64,000 bases of DNA from Georgenia muralis. GTDB taxonomy: Bacteria; Actinomycetota; Actinomycetes; Actinomycetales; Actinomycetaceae. Made by a program: the position numbers and the translations under genes. The notes beneath the pieces were generated by a model. It was not told the origin of the DNA and did not search any database. It saw only the letters and a program-made list of their open reading frames with translations. Each line of letters starts with the position of its first letter. Position 1 is the first letter of the stretch. Location of the stretch: NCBI RefSeq assembly GCF_003814705.1, contig NZ_RKRA01000001.1, positions 1,302,001 to 1,366,000 on the forward strand, in the 5' to 3' direction. Of the stretch, positions 29,226-36,826 are shown one piece after another.

Positions 29226-30368
29226 TCAGGAGAAGAGGAAGATCCGCCCGTCACCCGCGCCCATGAGGGCCTCGAGGGCCAGCAGCGTCCCGGCCGCGCC
29301 GGAGAGCAGGCCCGCACCGGTGCTGCGGACGTCGATCTTTGCGCCGAGCAGGCCCAGGCGCCCGAGGTGCGGCCCCATCACCGCGCGGCGCTGGACCGGG
29401 GTGTCCCACGGGGTGCGGCGCAGGTGCCACAGCGCCATCGCCACGCCCGCGGCGCCGCCGTCGAGCCCGGCCTCCTCGGGGCTGTAGCACTCGGCGGCCG
29501 TGGCGATCCACTCGGCGGCGTCACCCAGCCAGCGGTCGTCCAGGTGCGCCATCGCCTCGCGGATGACCATCGCGAGCCCCGCGCTGCCCTGACCGAGGGT
29601 GGGCTGCTGCCACCACAGCGGAGCGGCACCGTCCCCGCTCAGCGGCGCCCAGCCGAGCTTCCCGAGGTCCTGCAGGAGGGCGGCCTCGGCCGGGCCGAGG
29701 AGCGACTCGTCCTCGGTGATCTCGTACAGGTGGATGAGGAAGAGGGCCGCACCGGCCCCGCCCTCGAGGAGCCCGCTGCCGTGGTCGCACGCACCGAGCC
29801 GCACGATGAGCTCGCCGGCGATCTCGGTCAGCCGGGCCATGAGGGCGTCCTCGTCGCCGATCGGCGCACGCTCGAGGAGCGCCAGTCCCAGACCGGCGAG
29901 CCCGCTGCTCACGGAGACGTCGAGGCGTCCCAGGGGCGCCTCGTCGGCCCGCCGCCACAGCCGGGCGGCGTCGTCGTGGCGGCCGAGACGGTCCAGGGCC
30001 AGGGCGGCTCCGCTGGCGCCGTCGAACAGGCCGGGGGCGGTGAGCTCGTCCGCCCGGGCGACGAGCCAGTCGACCAGCCGCTCGGGGACGTCGGCGCCGA
30101 TCTCGGCGAGCGCCCACAGGACGCCGGCCGCGCCGGTCCCGAGCGAGGCGCCGTCGGTCCCCGGGAAGAGCCGGTCGGCCCGGGCGGGGGTCGCCGAGCG
30201 CAGGATCTCGCGCACGAGGGCGGAGCGGGCCTGGCGGTGGGCGAGGGCCCCCCGGTCACGCAGGTGCAGGACGTCGGCCGGCGCATCGGGCGCGAGCAGG
30301 TCCACGGCGTCCCGAGCCGGGCGGACGACGGCGGCGTGCGGTCGCACCCACTGGGTCGTAGCGCTCAT
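29226..30368 (-). CDS. Stand-alone LanC-like (lanthionine synthetase C) protein
   Basis: A 380-residue alpha/alpha-barrel protein. Seven GxxG-type repeats are readable: GTGAAGVLWAL, GLFDGASGAALAL, SSGLAGLGLALL, GLLEGGAGAALFL, GQGSAGLAMV, GLDGGAAGVAMAL and GLLSGAAGTLLAL. The Cys/Cys-His zinc ligands of LanC cyclases are not evident; the usual CHG is GLLSG. It thus resembles the C-domain of class III/IV synthetases, but has no kinase or lyase domain. No precursor, LanB/LanM or protease gene is nearby. It may be a binding or scaffold protein. ATG 30368 follows CAGGGGGA. Confidence 0.8.
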   Translation of the reverse strand: MSATTQWVRPHAAVVRPARDAVDLLAPDAPADVLHLRDRGALAHRQARSALVREILRSATPARADRLFPGTDGASLGTGAAGVLWALAEIGADVPERLVDWLVARADELTAPGLFDGASGAALALDRLGRHDDAARLWRRADEAPLGRLDVSVSSGLAGLGLALLERAPIGDEDALMARLTEIAGELIVRLGACDHGSGLLEGGAGAALFLIHLYEITEDESLLGPAEAALLQDLGKLGWAPLSGDGAAPLWWQQPTLGQGSAGLAMVIREAMAHLDDRWLGDAAEWIATAAECYSPEEAGLDGGAAGVAMALWHLRRTPWDTPVQRRAVMGPHLGRLGLLGAKIDVRSTGAGLLSGAAGTLLALEALMGAGDGRIFLFS

Positions 30369-32516: not shown

Positions 32517-35126
32517 CTACCGCGCCATGTCGACGAACCGGGAGTAGTGGCCCTGGAAGGCCACGACCACGGTGTCGGTCGGTCCGTTGCGGTGCTTGGC
32601 CACGATGATGTCGGCCTCGCCGGCGCGTGGGGACTCCTTCTCGTAGGCGTCCTCGCGGTGCAGGAGCATGACGACGTCGGCGTCCTGCTCGAGCGAGCCA
32701 CTCTCACGAAGGTCGCTCATCATCGGCTTCTTGTCCGTGCGCTGCTCGGGACCACGGTTGAGCTGGGCGACCGCGATGACCGGCACCTCGATCTCCTTGG
32801 CCAGGAGCTTCAGCGCCCGGGAGAACTCGGAGACCTCCTGCTGGCGCGACTCCACCCGCTTGCCCGAGCTCATGAGCTGGAGGTAGTCGACGACGACGAG
32901 GCGGAGGTCGTGGCGCTGCTTGAGGCGCCGGCACTTCGCGCGGATCTCCATGAGCGACATGTTCGGGCTGTCGTCGATGAACAGGGGCGCCTCGGAGACC
33001 CGGCTCATGGCCGTCGCCATCCGGGTCCAGTCCTCCTCGCGCATGGTGCCCTTGCGCATGTTCTGCAGCGGCACCTGCGCCTCGGCGGAGAGCAGTCGCA
33101 TCGTCAGCTCGGTCCGGCCCATCTCGAGGGAGAACACCACGGAGGTGAGGCCGTGCTTGATGGACGCCGACCGGCAGATGTCGAGCGCCATGGTGGAGTT
33201 GTGGGTCGGGATCATCGACCGTGAGGCGAGGTACAGGTGCGTGGGGTGGTCGATCTGGACGCACCGAACCGGGACTGCGTCGATGCGCCGAACGCCGGTG
33301 ATGAAGCGCTCGGTGCGCCGCCCGGTAGCCGTGGTTCTCCGCTCAGCGTGGACGCGCTGCTTGCGGGTGAGCGCGAAGACCTGGTCGTCGGTGGTGAAGG
33401 TGATGGTGTAGGCGACAGACGTCTCGGCCAGGCGCCCCCGCACCGTCCTGGTCGACCAGCCGGTGCGGTACCCCAGGCTGTGCACCAGCTCCCGGACGTC
33501 ATGCGCGAGGCGAGCACTGGTGACGGTGAACTGCACGGCGCCCGTAGGACTGACCGTGCCGTCGGTGTCGAGCAGGCCCGCGAGGAGTGCCCGACGCTGT
33601 CGCTCGCTCGCCCGGAGGTATGACTGGGGGATGTGCTTGCTGCCCAGGACTCCCAGCTTGCGCAGCAGCGCGTGGACGTTGCCGTGGTCGTGCCAGCACA
33701 CCTGACACAGCCGGGACCCCGAGCTGTCCTTGCCACAGTCCGGGCACGCCGGACGGACCTTCTCCAGCAGAAGCGTCTTGCGCTTCCCCCCGCAGCTGCG
33801 GCCACACGTGCGTACGTGCGCCTGCTTGGACACGTAGGCGACGCCGCAGACGTCGCACGCGCGCTCCTGCGGGGCCGGCGAGGGCGGCAGTCCGATGGAG
33901 TAGTTCAGGCCGGCCCCGGCTCGCACCACATAGCCTGCTGCCTCGACGAGCGTGGCCACCTCTGGGTCCGCAGAAGTGAAACGGGCTCCGGCGCTGTGCC
34001 CGTCGCCCAGCCAGACGCCCAGGACGTACGCGTCGAGCGGCAGGTCGGCATCGGGAAGGATGATCGGAGCGGCGTTGGTGACCGAGTGGTTGAGGCGCCG
34101 GTCCGCCGTCGGGCAGCGCAGGGTGTTCGCGATCTCCTCGGTGGTGCGCACCTGGGCGAAGGTCACCTGGTTTCGGTAACCGTTGTACCCGGTGGCCGCC
34201 TGCTGCGCCGAACGCCGCGACGCCCTGGTCTCAGTCAGCCACTGGTGCTGCCCGTCGGCGACGATGGTCGTGCCGTCGTCGAACGTCACCTCGTAGCACG
34301 GGCGGTCCGTCATGACGTCGGTCGCCGCCACCACGGTGGTGGGCGTGCCGTCCACGGCGATGAGCTGGTCGCCAACAGCTACCTCACCCATCGTGGTCCA
34401 GCCAGTAGGCGTCGGCAGCGGCGTGTCCAGGGCGAGGGCCTTACCAATAGCTGGTCTCGCCGCGATAATGATCATCTGTCCGCCGTGCAAACCGTTGGTC
34501 AAGGCGTCCAGGTCGGCGAAGCCCGTGGGCACGCCGACCATCCCCTCCCCGCGGTTGGCGGCGTGCTCGATCTCCTCCATCGTGAGGTTGATGGTGTCCC
34601 GCAGCGGGACGTAGTCCTCGCTCGTCCGGCGCTCGGTCACGGCGTAGACCTCGGCCTGCGCCGAGTTGACGAGGTCGTCGACGTCGCCGCCCTCGGTGGC
34701 GTACCCCAGCTGGACGATGCGGGTCCCCGCCTCGACCAGCCGGCGCAGCACGGCCTGCTCACGCACGATGCGGGCGTAGTAGCCGGCGTTGGCAGCGGTG
34801 GGCACGGACGAGATGAGCGTGTGCAGGTAGGGCGCGCCGCCGACCCGGGCCATCTCGCCGCGCTTGGTCAGCTCGGCGGCGACGGTGACGGCGTCGGCCG
34901 GCTCACCGCGGCCGTAGAGGTCGATGATCGCCTCGTAGACCATCTCGTGCGCGGGGCGGTAGAAGTCGTTGCCCCGCAGCTCCTCGACGACGTCGGCGAT
35001 GGCGTCCTTGGACAGCAGCATGCCGCCGAGGACACTCTGCTCCGCCGCCACGTCCTGGGGCGGGGTGCGGTCGAAGGACTCCCGCTCCTGGTAGGCGCGC
35101 GCCCCGACCTGCTCGTCAACCGACAC
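32517..35126 (-). CDS. dnaB: Replicative DNA helicase DnaB with in-frame intein
   Basis: An 869-residue precursor; removal of the 414-residue intein leaves 455 residues, normal for DnaB. The N-terminal domain starts with RTPPQDVAAEQSVLGGMLL. The RecA-like ATPase has its Walker A split by the intein (ARPAIGK | STMALD), then SLEMGRTEL, the Walker B VVVDYLQLM and the Arg-finger region near the end. It unwinds DNA at the replication fork. GTG 35126 has GGGAGGAC at 6 nt. The upstream gap carries several DnaA-box-like 9-mers. Until splicing restores the P-loop the precursor cannot hydrolyse ATP. Confidence 0.96.
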   Translation of the reverse strand: MSVDEQVGARAYQERESFDRTPPQDVAAEQSVLGGMLLSKDAIADVVEELRGNDFYRPAHEMVYEAIIDLYGRGEPADAVTVAAELTKRGEMARVGGAPYLHTLISSVPTAANAGYYARIVREQAVLRRLVEAGTRIVQLGYATEGGDVDDLVNSAQAEVYAVTERRTSEDYVPLRDTINLTMEEIEHAANRGEGMVGVPTGFADLDALTNGLHGGQMIIIAARPAIGKALALDTPLPTPTGWTTMGEVAVGDQLIAVDGTPTTVVAATDVMTDRPCYEVTFDDGTTIVADGQHQWLTETRASRRSAQQAATGYNGYRNQVTFAQVRTTEEIANTLRCPTADRRLNHSVTNAAPIILPDADLPLDAYVLGVWLGDGHSAGARFTSADPEVATLVEAAGYVVRAGAGLNYSIGLPPSPAPQERACDVCGVAYVSKQAHVRTCGRSCGGKRKTLLLEKVRPACPDCGKDSSGSRLCQVCWHDHGNVHALLRKLGVLGSKHIPQSYLRASERQRRALLAGLLDTDGTVSPTGAVQFTVTSARLAHDVRELVHSLGYRTGWSTRTVRGRLAETSVAYTITFTTDDQVFALTRKQRVHAERRTTATGRRTERFITGVRRIDAVPVRCVQIDHPTHLYLASRSMIPTHNSTMALDICRSASIKHGLTSVVFSLEMGRTELTMRLLSAEAQVPLQNMRKGTMREEDWTRMATAMSRVSEAPLFIDDSPNMSLMEIRAKCRRLKQRHDLRLVVVDYLQLMSSGKRVESRQQEVSEFSRALKLLAKEIEVPVIAVAQLNRGPEQRTDKKPMMSDLRESGSLEQDADVVMLLHREDAYEKESPRAGEADIIVAKHRNGPTDTVVVAFQGHYSRFVDMAR
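33198..34439 (-). other. Class 3-type intein with zinc-knuckle LAGLIDADG homing endonuclease
   Basis: A 414-residue intein at precursor residues 230-643, between Lys229 and Ser644. It starts with Ala, not Cys or Ser. His65 and Trp67 lie in block B (GQHQWLT), Cys393 in block F (VRCVQID) and Thr412-His-Asn414 at the end. The W-C-T triplet defines class 3 inteins, which start splicing from the block F Cys. Endonuclease motifs are VLGVWLGDG (139-147) and LLAGLLDTDG (285-294), both with the catalytic Asp. Between them lie C195-x2-C198, C212-x3-C216, C232-x2-C235 and C245-x2-C248, two probable zinc sites. Confidence 0.93.
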
Positions 35127-35431
35127 GTGCGTCCTCCCACCCCGGGGCCCGTCCCCGGGCCCCGTCCTACATCCGGCCACCCACACCGGGCCGGCCGCGA
35201 GCACCACGTGGTGGCGCCCGCGCGACGTTAGGGCCTCAGCCTGGTGGGACCAAACGCCCCCTGTGCAGGGCGGCGACCTATTCTGTGGACGGCGTGTGGA
35301 CGAGGGCCGCCCTGGTTGTGCACAGTCGGTGGACAAGAATGTGGGTAACCGTTTGCATCGCGCCGGTTCTGACGCGGCACGGCCCTCCACAGCCATGCAC
35401 ACACTGTGGACAGAAAGAGGTCGGTGGATCC
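35127..35431. promoter_or_regulatory. dnaB-MATE divergent gap with DnaA-box-like cluster
   Basis: Within 130 bp five 9-mers match the DnaA box (TTGTCCACA or its complement TGTGGACAA) at 7-8 of 9 positions. They are TGTGGACGG (35284), TGTGGACGA (35295), TTGTGCACA (35316), GGTGGACAA (35328) and TGTGGACAG (35405). The gap lies between divergent dnaB and MATE starts. It may tie dnaB expression to DnaA or be an origin-proximal DnaA sink. It is not flanked by dnaA or dnaN, so I do not call it oriC. Confidence 0.5.
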
Positions 35432-36826
35432 GTGGACGACACGCCCGGGGACGGCTCCGACCCTCGACCCACCCCTGAGTCGCCCGGACGCACCGACCGG
35501 GTGGGCGGCGCCTCGATCGACCGGCAGATCCTCGCCCTGGCAGTACCGGCGCTGGGCGCGCTGGTGGCGGAACCGCTGTTCGTCCTCGTCGACTCGGCGA
35601 TGGTCGGGCGCCTGGGCACCGCCGAGCTCGCCGGGCTGTCGCTCAGCTCGACCCTGCTCACCACCGTCGTCGGCGTCTTCGTCTTCCTCGCCTACGCCAC
35701 GACCGCGGCCACTGCCCGACGTGTCGGCGCCGGCGACCGGGCCGGGGCCGTCGCCGCAGGGGTCGACGGGATGTGGCTGGCGCTTCTGCTCGGTGCCCTC
35801 TCCGCCGGCGCCGCGCTCCTCGCCGCTCCGTGGGTGGTCGCGGCGCTCGGCGCGCCGGAGACGGTCGTCCCGCACGCCGTCGCCTACCTGCGCGCGTCCG
35901 CGGCGGGTCTGCCAGGCATGCTCGTGGTCCTGGCGGCGACCGGCACGCTGAGGGGTCTGCTGGACACCCGCACGCCGTTCGTCGTCGCCGTGGCCGGGGC
36001 GCTGGCCAACATCGGGCTGAACTTCATCCTCATCTACGGCGCGGGTCTCGGGGTCGCCGGGTCGGGCTTCGGCACGGCGATCGCCCAGACGTCGATGGGG
36101 CTGGCGCTGGCCTGGACCGTCCTGCGGGGGGCCCGCAGCCTCGGGGTGAGCCTGCGCCCGCACGGCGCCGGGATCTGGGCGTCGGCCGCGCAGGGACTGC
36201 CGCTCATGGTCCGCACGCTCACGCTGCGCGCCGCGATCCTCGTGACGGTCGCCGTCGCGACATCCCTGGGGACGGTGGTCCTCGCCGCGCACCAGGTCGT
36301 CACCGCCATGTGGAGTCTCGCGGCGTTCGGGCTCGACGCCCTGGCGATCGCCGGGCAGGCACTCGTGGGACGCGGCCTGGGAGCCGGCGACCTCGCGACG
36401 GTACGCGCCGTCATGCGCCGCTCCCTGCAGTGGGGCGTCGCGGCCGGGGCCGGCCTGGGTGTGCTCTTTGCCGCCGGCGGGTGGTTCCTCGCGCCGCTGT
36501 TCACCGGGGACGACGACGTCCGGCTCGCCGCCGCCGTCGGCCTGGCGGTGGCGGGGGCCTGCCTGCCGGTGGCGGGGTGGGTCTTCGTCCTCGACGGTGT
36601 GCTCATCGGGGCCGGCGACGGTCGGTACCTGGCCTGGGCGGGCGTCGTCACGCTGGTGGTCTACGTCCCGCTCGCGATGGCGGTCGGGGCCTGGGCTCCG
36701 GGAGGGGCGGTCGGCACCGCCTGGCTCTGGGCGACCTTCGGCGGGGCCTTCATGCTCGCCCGGGCCGTGACCACAGGGCTGCGGGCCCGCGGGGAGACCT
36801 GGATGGTCCCGGGGGCCGCGCGCTGA
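35432..36826 (+). CDS. MATE family efflux transporter (DinF-like)
   Basis: A 464-residue, twelve-helix multidrug and toxin extrusion protein. PALGALVAEPLFVLVDSAMVG at the start and AGSGFGTAIAQ and LDALAIAGQALVGRGLG further on are typical of the DinF branch of MATE antiporters, which use a Na+ or H+ gradient. The first 35 residues are polar and cytoplasmic. GTG 35432 is chosen; AGAGG lies about 12 nt upstream and no nearer start is in frame. It diverges from dnaB. Confidence 0.9.
   Translation: MDDTPGDGSDPRPTPESPGRTDRVGGASIDRQILALAVPALGALVAEPLFVLVDSAMVGRLGTAELAGLSLSSTLLTTVVGVFVFLAYATTAATARRVGAGDRAGAVAAGVDGMWLALLLGALSAGAALLAAPWVVAALGAPETVVPHAVAYLRASAAGLPGMLVVLAATGTLRGLLDTRTPFVVAVAGALANIGLNFILIYGAGLGVAGSGFGTAIAQTSMGLALAWTVLRGARSLGVSLRPHGAGIWASAAQGLPLMVRTLTLRAAILVTVAVATSLGTVVLAAHQVVTAMWSLAAFGLDALAIAGQALVGRGLGAGDLATVRAVMRRSLQWGVAAGAGLGVLFAAGGWFLAPLFTGDDDVRLAAAVGLAVAGACLPVAGWVFVLDGVLIGAGDGRYLAWAGVVTLVVYVPLAMAVGAWAPGGAVGTAWLWATFGGAFMLARAVTTGLRARGETWMVPGAAR

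Follow-up and report, generated by a model that had tools for sequence, protein, structure and literature searches.

What do two cysteine clusters do inside a protein-splicing element? In Georgenia muralis, the gene for the replicative helicase DnaB carries an intein whose endonuclease part holds eight Cys in two groups of four, and the question is whether they belong to splicing or to homing. We analysed a 64,000-nucleotide stretch of the chromosome, called the window here, and followed the intein family through other genomes. The reading that we favour, at a probability of roughly three in four, is that the P-loop of chromosomal DnaB is interrupted by a class 3 intein carrying a LAGLIDADG endonuclease of its own and that the Cys module belongs to the endonuclease. 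Class 3 inteins and the DnaB-b insertion site are already known; the endonuclease with its Cys module appears to be the new part.

A class 3 intein in the DnaB P-loop

The intein lies within one open DnaB frame, in which the P-loop sequence ARPAIGK is followed by 414 residues and then by STMALD. The preliminary description had placed it at 33198-34439 with ARPAIGK/STMALD junctions, and its coordinates and strand proved exact.

32517..35126, minus strand: dnaB, replicative helicase including the intein (TIGR00665, 531 bits against a cut-off of 385; PF03796 and PF00772)
34440..35126, minus strand: N-extein, 229 residues counted from the inferred start, ending ...ARPAIGK
33198..34439, minus strand: class 3 intein, 414 aa, ALALDT...PTHN
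32517..33197, minus strand: C-extein, 226 residues with Ser+1 first (STMALD...), plus the stop codon
34122..34439, minus strand: splicing domain, N-terminal part (residues 1-106 with Ala1, Cys48, D62xxH65 and Trp67; inner boundary set by us)
33198..33314, minus strand: splicing domain, C-terminal part (residues 376-414 with Cys393 and Thr412-His413-Asn414; inner boundary set by us)

Translation of dnaB probably begins at GTG 35126 (VSVDEQ...), a start that we picked by eye within an open frame spanning 32517-35402 on the minus strand. Queried with the intein, the window genome, a single 4.14-Mb contig, returns one match. Neighbours of dnaB include a MATE efflux transporter (35285-36826, plus strand) and ribosomal protein L9 (37966-38901, minus strand), both above cut-off and ordinary. 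Elsewhere in the window, 29226-30368 on the minus strand gives a partial match to the class III lanthionine synthetase LanKC, at 174 bits below the cut-off of 575.

Alignment with two solved class 3 inteins places the window intein in that class. Its splicing halves match M. chimaera DnaB1 (6rix) at a phmmer E-value of 7.1e-42 and M. smegmatis DnaBi1 (6bs8) at 1.5e-39, with alignments that cover residues 1-79 and the final 35 to 51. Ala1 aligns with residue 1 of both, leaving no Cys, Ser or Thr at that position, and W67, C393 and T412 align with Trp67, Cys118 and Thr137 of DnaBi1. The block F Cys and block G Thr stand 19 residues apart in both inteins, and block B H65, the C-terminal H413-N414 and the nucleophile Ser+1 are all present. 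Each of the residues named in the preliminary description, and its 19-residue spacing, is where it was said to be, and the alignment to known class 3 inteins that it proposed turned up nothing at the sequence level against its assignment. Ala1 and the W-C-T residues occur in all 169 aligned same-site inteins, a set that includes the window copy and the 80 relatives described below.

The two solved relatives share the class 3 residues and HINT halves of the window intein and differ from it in size. DnaBi1 resembles it most: the available text of PMC6195587 places DnaBi1 at P-loop site b with Ala1, Trp67-Cys118-Thr137, a DxxH motif and Ser+1, and it also has Cys48. M. chimaera DnaB1 is described as small, with a HINT fold, in the accessible part of PMC7664689. 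Both are mini-inteins (chains of 139 and 145 aa) with no endonuclease, as the available sections of PMC6195587 and PMC7360933 also state for DnaBi1, whereas the window intein contains a complete LAGLIDADG domain with two Cys4 clusters. Assignment of the window intein to class 3 is sound on sequence, and its chemistry would be that of the studied relatives: Cys393 would attack the Lys-Ala1 bond, the N-extein would be transferred to Ser+1, and cyclisation of Asn414 would leave DnaB joined.

A LAGLIDADG endonuclease holds two four-Cys clusters

The insert between the splicing halves is a full LAGLIDADG domain, as the preliminary description had it.

33315..34121, minus strand: LAGLIDADG endonuclease region (residues 107-375, approximate; Pfam, AF2 model, Foldseek to PI-SceI)
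33999..34034, minus strand: LAGLIDADG motif 1 with Asp146 (residues 136-147, DAYVLGVWLGDG)
33558..33584, minus strand: LAGLIDADG motif 2 with Asp293 (residues 286-294)
33792..33857, minus strand: Cys cluster 1 (C195, C198, C212, C216), each Cys in 78 of 80 relatives
33696..33746, minus strand: Cys cluster 2 (C232, C235, C245, C248), complete in 80 of 80 relatives

LAGLIDADG_3 (PF14528) and Hom_end (PF05204) exceed their Pfam cut-offs, and the two motifs carry the acidic residues D146 and D293, which we take to be the usual catalytic positions of LAGLIDADG endonucleases. An AF2 model built from 88 aligned sequences (the window, 80 genome loci and 7 of 80 viral loci) has a mean pLDDT of 91.5, with 76-87 over blocks 191-250. 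Its top Foldseek match is PI-SceI, across the whole chain (E 6.4e-18, TM 0.63), so that the predicted overall fold fits a LAGLIDADG homing endonuclease.

Both Cys clusters lie between motif 1 and motif 2. Their spacing is of the Cys4 type, CxxC-x13-CxxxC in cluster 1 and CxxC-x9-CxxC in cluster 2. A zinc knuckle usually follows a CCHC pattern; the label "doubly zinc-knuckled" in the preliminary description therefore holds for the presence of two four-Cys clusters and not for the kind of motif. Given the phmmer E-values, the Pfam cut-offs and the retention of the Cys in relatives, neither the clusters nor the LAGLIDADG match is likely to be due to chance.

Both clusters probably bind zinc. The pattern seen here, CxxC pairs in a cytoplasmic protein with Gly following the second Cys, is typical of structural zinc sites, and DZR_2 matches 4 of the 88 aligned members weakly at E up to 0.01 (best 0.0038). 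We consider it very unlikely that the clusters bind no zinc and instead form disulfides or another metal site, although the profile and structure searches speak somewhat for that alternative. No Pfam zinc family matches the window protein at its cut-off; DZR_2 scores 13.9 bits, where 27 would be needed. Solved structures, when searched, yielded only weak zinc-finger matches. The 79-residue module modelled alone (pLDDT 84.7, pTM 0.53) has no Foldseek match at E up to 0.001; the highest probability in 50 rows is that of the FCS finger 2w0t (0.54, E 0.93), a weak match, and the best hit of the module profile to PDB sequences, also weak, is a zinc finger protein at E 0.004. We draw no fold class for the module from matches of this strength.

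The double cluster is the norm among full-length relatives

The module is a family trait rather than an oddity of the window genome. We scanned genome contigs with a six-member family alignment and analysed the best 80 of 536 confirmed relatives, a choice that favours full-length forms. All 80 are actinobacterial, full-length and of the form GK/A...THN/S. A1, W67, C393 and T412 are present in 80 of 80, C48 in 77, D146 in 79 and D293 in 78; for cluster 1, three Cys were counted jointly and the fourth on its own. The preliminary description had called class 3 inteins rare and had singled out as unusual a full LAGLIDADG domain with two four-Cys clusters. The relatives support neither point: cluster 2 is complete in all 80, any given Cys of cluster 1 is present in 78, and an endonuclease with both clusters is what a full-length DnaB-b intein normally has.

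Among the best 80 of 536 are full-length DnaB-b inteins in Mycobacterium loci. The endonuclease-less state of the mycobacterial DnaB-b inteins compared in the available text of PMC5050341 is therefore not genus-wide. The dnaB genes of two family genomes (loci L002 and L003, genomes G107 and G058) carry a second intein downstream, after ...SDLRESG and starting CL; M. smegmatis likewise has a second DnaB intein, at site a, and the window DnaB has none there. Three further loci in family genomes (L008, L009 and L014) hold class 3-looking inteins with no double Cys clusters, in host proteins that resemble phage terminases by appearance.

Cluster 1 is the less constant of the two. The exceptions among the best 80 are G. 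thermotolerans and G. ruanii, and cluster 1 is also absent from a family member of another genus (L006); both Asps are intact in all three, so cluster 1 is either dispensable there or the enzyme died recently. For the Georgenia pair, pN/pS reaches 0.49 over the module region, compared with 0.09 and 0.11 for the two remaining parts. Over 23 pairs of full-length relatives, dN/dS is 0.148 in the module, 0.120 in the endonuclease core and 0.115 in the splicing part.

The module is lost with the catalytic Asps

At this one site, DnaB-b inteins occur in successive stages of decay. Two broader samples were taken to reduce the preference for full-length forms. In the phylum sample 44 of 396 genomes matched at 1e-10, and in the class sample 100 of 393 matched at 1e-15; loci were drawn from the matches listed. 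Class-sample genomes that have no locus in the set include G666 and G892. We examined 109 loci; 97 conformed to the DnaB-b pattern, and 12 that did not match GK/...HN/ST..D were left out. Six of the 97 were previously found family loci, and the other 91 with the window make a sample of 92 inteins. Ten of these are shorter than 150 aa, three measure 150-200, 29 measure 200-370 and 50 have at least 370. Ala1, W-C-T and Cys48 are invariant in all 92.

Two side observations come from the same loci. In nine inteins of the class sample (L281-L289), 486-501 aa long, some 80 additional residues separate block B from the endonuclease, and both clusters are present. Genome G849 has two dnaB-like loci interrupted at the same P-loop site, one by an intein of 417 aa with both clusters (L256) and the other by one of 233 aa without them (L331).

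Presence of the module tracks the presumed catalytic residues. Of the 79 endonuclease-size inserts, 43 combine cluster 2 with both Asps, two have cluster 2 only, nine have the Asps only and 25 have neither (Fisher 5e-11, kinship ignored). Two scores were set by hand: L229, in which the alignment is shifted, counts as carrying cluster 2, and L275, which reads CCRC, as not carrying it. The association persists when kinship is considered. We built a 97-row tree from which the module and the two Asp columns were excluded; on it, cluster 2 needs a minimum of 16 changes and the Asp pair 12. Of 13 independent contrasts on supported branches, an average of 7.5 run in the same direction and 5.5 leave the Asps unchanged, and none runs in the opposite direction; a tree-aware test gives a median p of 0.008 (range 0.004-0.06). 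Five family rows (L002-L006) lie outside the 79-row table and inside the tree, the change counts and the contrasts, which makes 84 two-trait rows.

The link is not absolute. We dropped the stricter rule that an insert without cluster 2 always loses its Asps, since both are kept in nine of 34 such inserts. These nine, out of 79, count against the link, as do the 5.5 of 13 contrasts that show no Asp change. Two predicted strands that precede the module are missing in eight of the nine module-less inserts that keep the Asps and in 20 of the 25 without Asps. Restricting the count to strand-keeping inserts leaves 43 with cluster 2 and Asps, one with cluster 2 only, one with Asps only and five with neither, so the link is not due to the strands alone; five is a small number, though, and it includes L275, which retains seven of the eight Cys. 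Deletion ends vary between rows, which fits repeated loss.

These patterns bear on whether the clusters could instead gate splicing, sensing zinc or redox state and controlling the release of functional DnaB. DnaBi1 gives that idea a precedent, as its splicing is inhibited by zinc (PMC7360933, available text) and stopped by a Cys48-Cys118 disulfide (PMC6195587, available text), and Cys48 is kept in the window intein and in 92 of 92 sampled inteins. The DnaBi1 effects, however, arise in an intein that has no endonuclease and so need no clusters. The clusters are missing from 34 of 79 endonuclease-size inserts and from all 13 shorter inteins, while the splicing residues stay invariant and the clusters track the Asps. 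We rate a role as splicing gate as quite unlikely. The module is kept with the catalytic Asps and repeatedly lost with them while the splicing residues remain constant, which argues that it belongs to the endonuclease. From the sequences we infer that the clusters serve that enzyme and disappear as it decays towards mini-inteins.

An empty site in the sister genome

Occupancy varies between close relatives. The intein is present in four of nine genomes of the genus, and a wider family search found any match in 13 of 213 genomes and a full-length one in six. In genome G106, sister of the window genome (100/100) with a dnaB about 97% identical, the site is empty, which we count in favour of homing. 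A search for a donor of the window intein among the five occupied relatives found none, their inteins being 66-74% identical to it.

Flanking sequence differs more than expected between the window genome and G106. Ten third-position differences fall within 40 nt of the site where 2.67 are expected (P 5e-5); the 40-nt width was selected after inspection of the data, and widths from 20 to 100 all give P <0.01. We retained this excess and dropped co-conversion as proof of recent gain, because it is the empty G106 that has the unusual base at several of the differing positions, and its branch is also the longer one (0.027 against 0.006). Nor do we claim horizontal transfer from trees, as only two branches are starred in the 11-genome dnaB tree. 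By eye, three empty alleles (L209 in G106, L210 in G105 and L213 in G109) have more A/T-ending codons just past the site than occupied ones. One idea is that silent changes at empty sites confer resistance to cutting.

The window endonuclease could also be dead already and its clusters relics, which we think unlikely. Decay is common, with at least one Asp missing in 27 of 79 endonuclease-size inserts, and intein and DnaB divergence rise together among the five relatives, as expected without recent transfer. Against this, the window copy is intact in length, in both Asps and in all eight Cys, endonuclease and module are under purifying selection in the 23 full-length pairs, and the sister site is empty. 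On our preferred reading of a working homing enzyme, the endonuclease would use Asp146 and Asp293 to cut intein-free dnaB alleles, and repair would copy the intein in. Two structural zinc sites would most likely brace its DNA-binding half-domain or widen its contact with DNA, and loss of the module would accompany a decay that ends in mini-inteins.

Phages, plasmids and other genomes

Among the relatives found, those nearest to the window intein occupy the same site in actinobacterial chromosomes. Actinobacteriophages carry class 3 inteins (in TerL, RecB and other proteins) of related sequence, but all 695 phage records matched by the intein are below 60% identity. A query with the module of the window copy, at E up to 0.01, had no match among 50,697 phage and 72,556 plasmid records. 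With phage matches this distant and the module unmatched in either collection, we set aside a phage origin of the window intein. The available part of PMC5050341 proposes that mycobacterial DnaB-b inteins share an ancestor with phage TerL1 inteins.

Other searches placed the module where it was already listed. A peptide pattern from the module alignment picked out 53 stretches in viral contigs, none of which was confirmed as the module. Of the 396 genomes in the phylum sample, six matched the 79-residue profile, one of them partly, and every match fell in a DnaB-b intein already listed. We counted CxxC pairs in the middle part of 73 distinct viral relatives and saw none in 42, one in 30 and two in a single relative.

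Zinc fingers in other homing endonucleases

Zinc fingers are not new to homing enzymes as such. The HNH and GIY-YIG endonucleases I-HmuI, I-TevI and ShiLan can carry them near the catalytic part (PMC3943268 and PMC11855218, available text), but these have other nuclease folds and none is a LAGLIDADG intein. PI-SceI, the VMA intein, is like the window intein in having a LAGLIDADG endonuclease and is the best structural match of the model; it is only 14% identical in the structural alignment and, as VDE, is described as free of a zinc finger in the accessible text of PMC7282813.

Yeast HO and WHO are named in the available part of the same 2020 paper (PMC7282813) as the only known intein-zinc finger fusions, and HO cleavage is reported there to require zinc and zinc finger residues. 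They resemble the window intein in that a LAGLIDADG protein of the intein type is combined with a region rich in CxxC, in their case a zinc finger (PMC7282813, same part). Their finger follows the intein-like part, and HO is described there as non-splicing and free of exteins, whereas the window clusters lie inside the endonuclease, between exteins, with splicing residues intact. The two are at most a parallel.

The endonuclease with a double Cys4 module is apparently a conserved variant undescribed in the literature searched. Our search by title, abstract and text, with most subscription papers, the 2011 class 3 survey and InBase outside its scope, listed no paper that names the module in its title or the opening of its abstract. 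Some full-length DnaB inteins are entered in InBase, and individual full-length members may already have been noticed by others. The available text of PMC3196547 and PMC7765530 makes no mention of such a module.

Meaning for the DnaB-b family

Judged from the pattern of loss across the family, the fate of the double Cys4 module appears to follow homing rather than splicing. A wider proposal joins three parts: a second, independent, bacterial origin of zinc-finger intein endonucleases, loss of the module early in decay, and a tie between zinc and homing. We advance it tentatively, rating its chances as somewhat short of even. If it is true, the module would sit in the endonuclease of an intein that still splices, and its loss would come early in the repeated decay to the class 3 mini-inteins that now serve as models. 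Zinc may then couple homing to the metal state of the cell, the same metal that can stall DnaB splicing. Full-length actinobacterial DnaB-b forms stand beside the stages of their decay to mini-inteins, all at one site. The set offers a natural series in which to test how a homing endonuclease is lost from inteins whose splicing is preserved.
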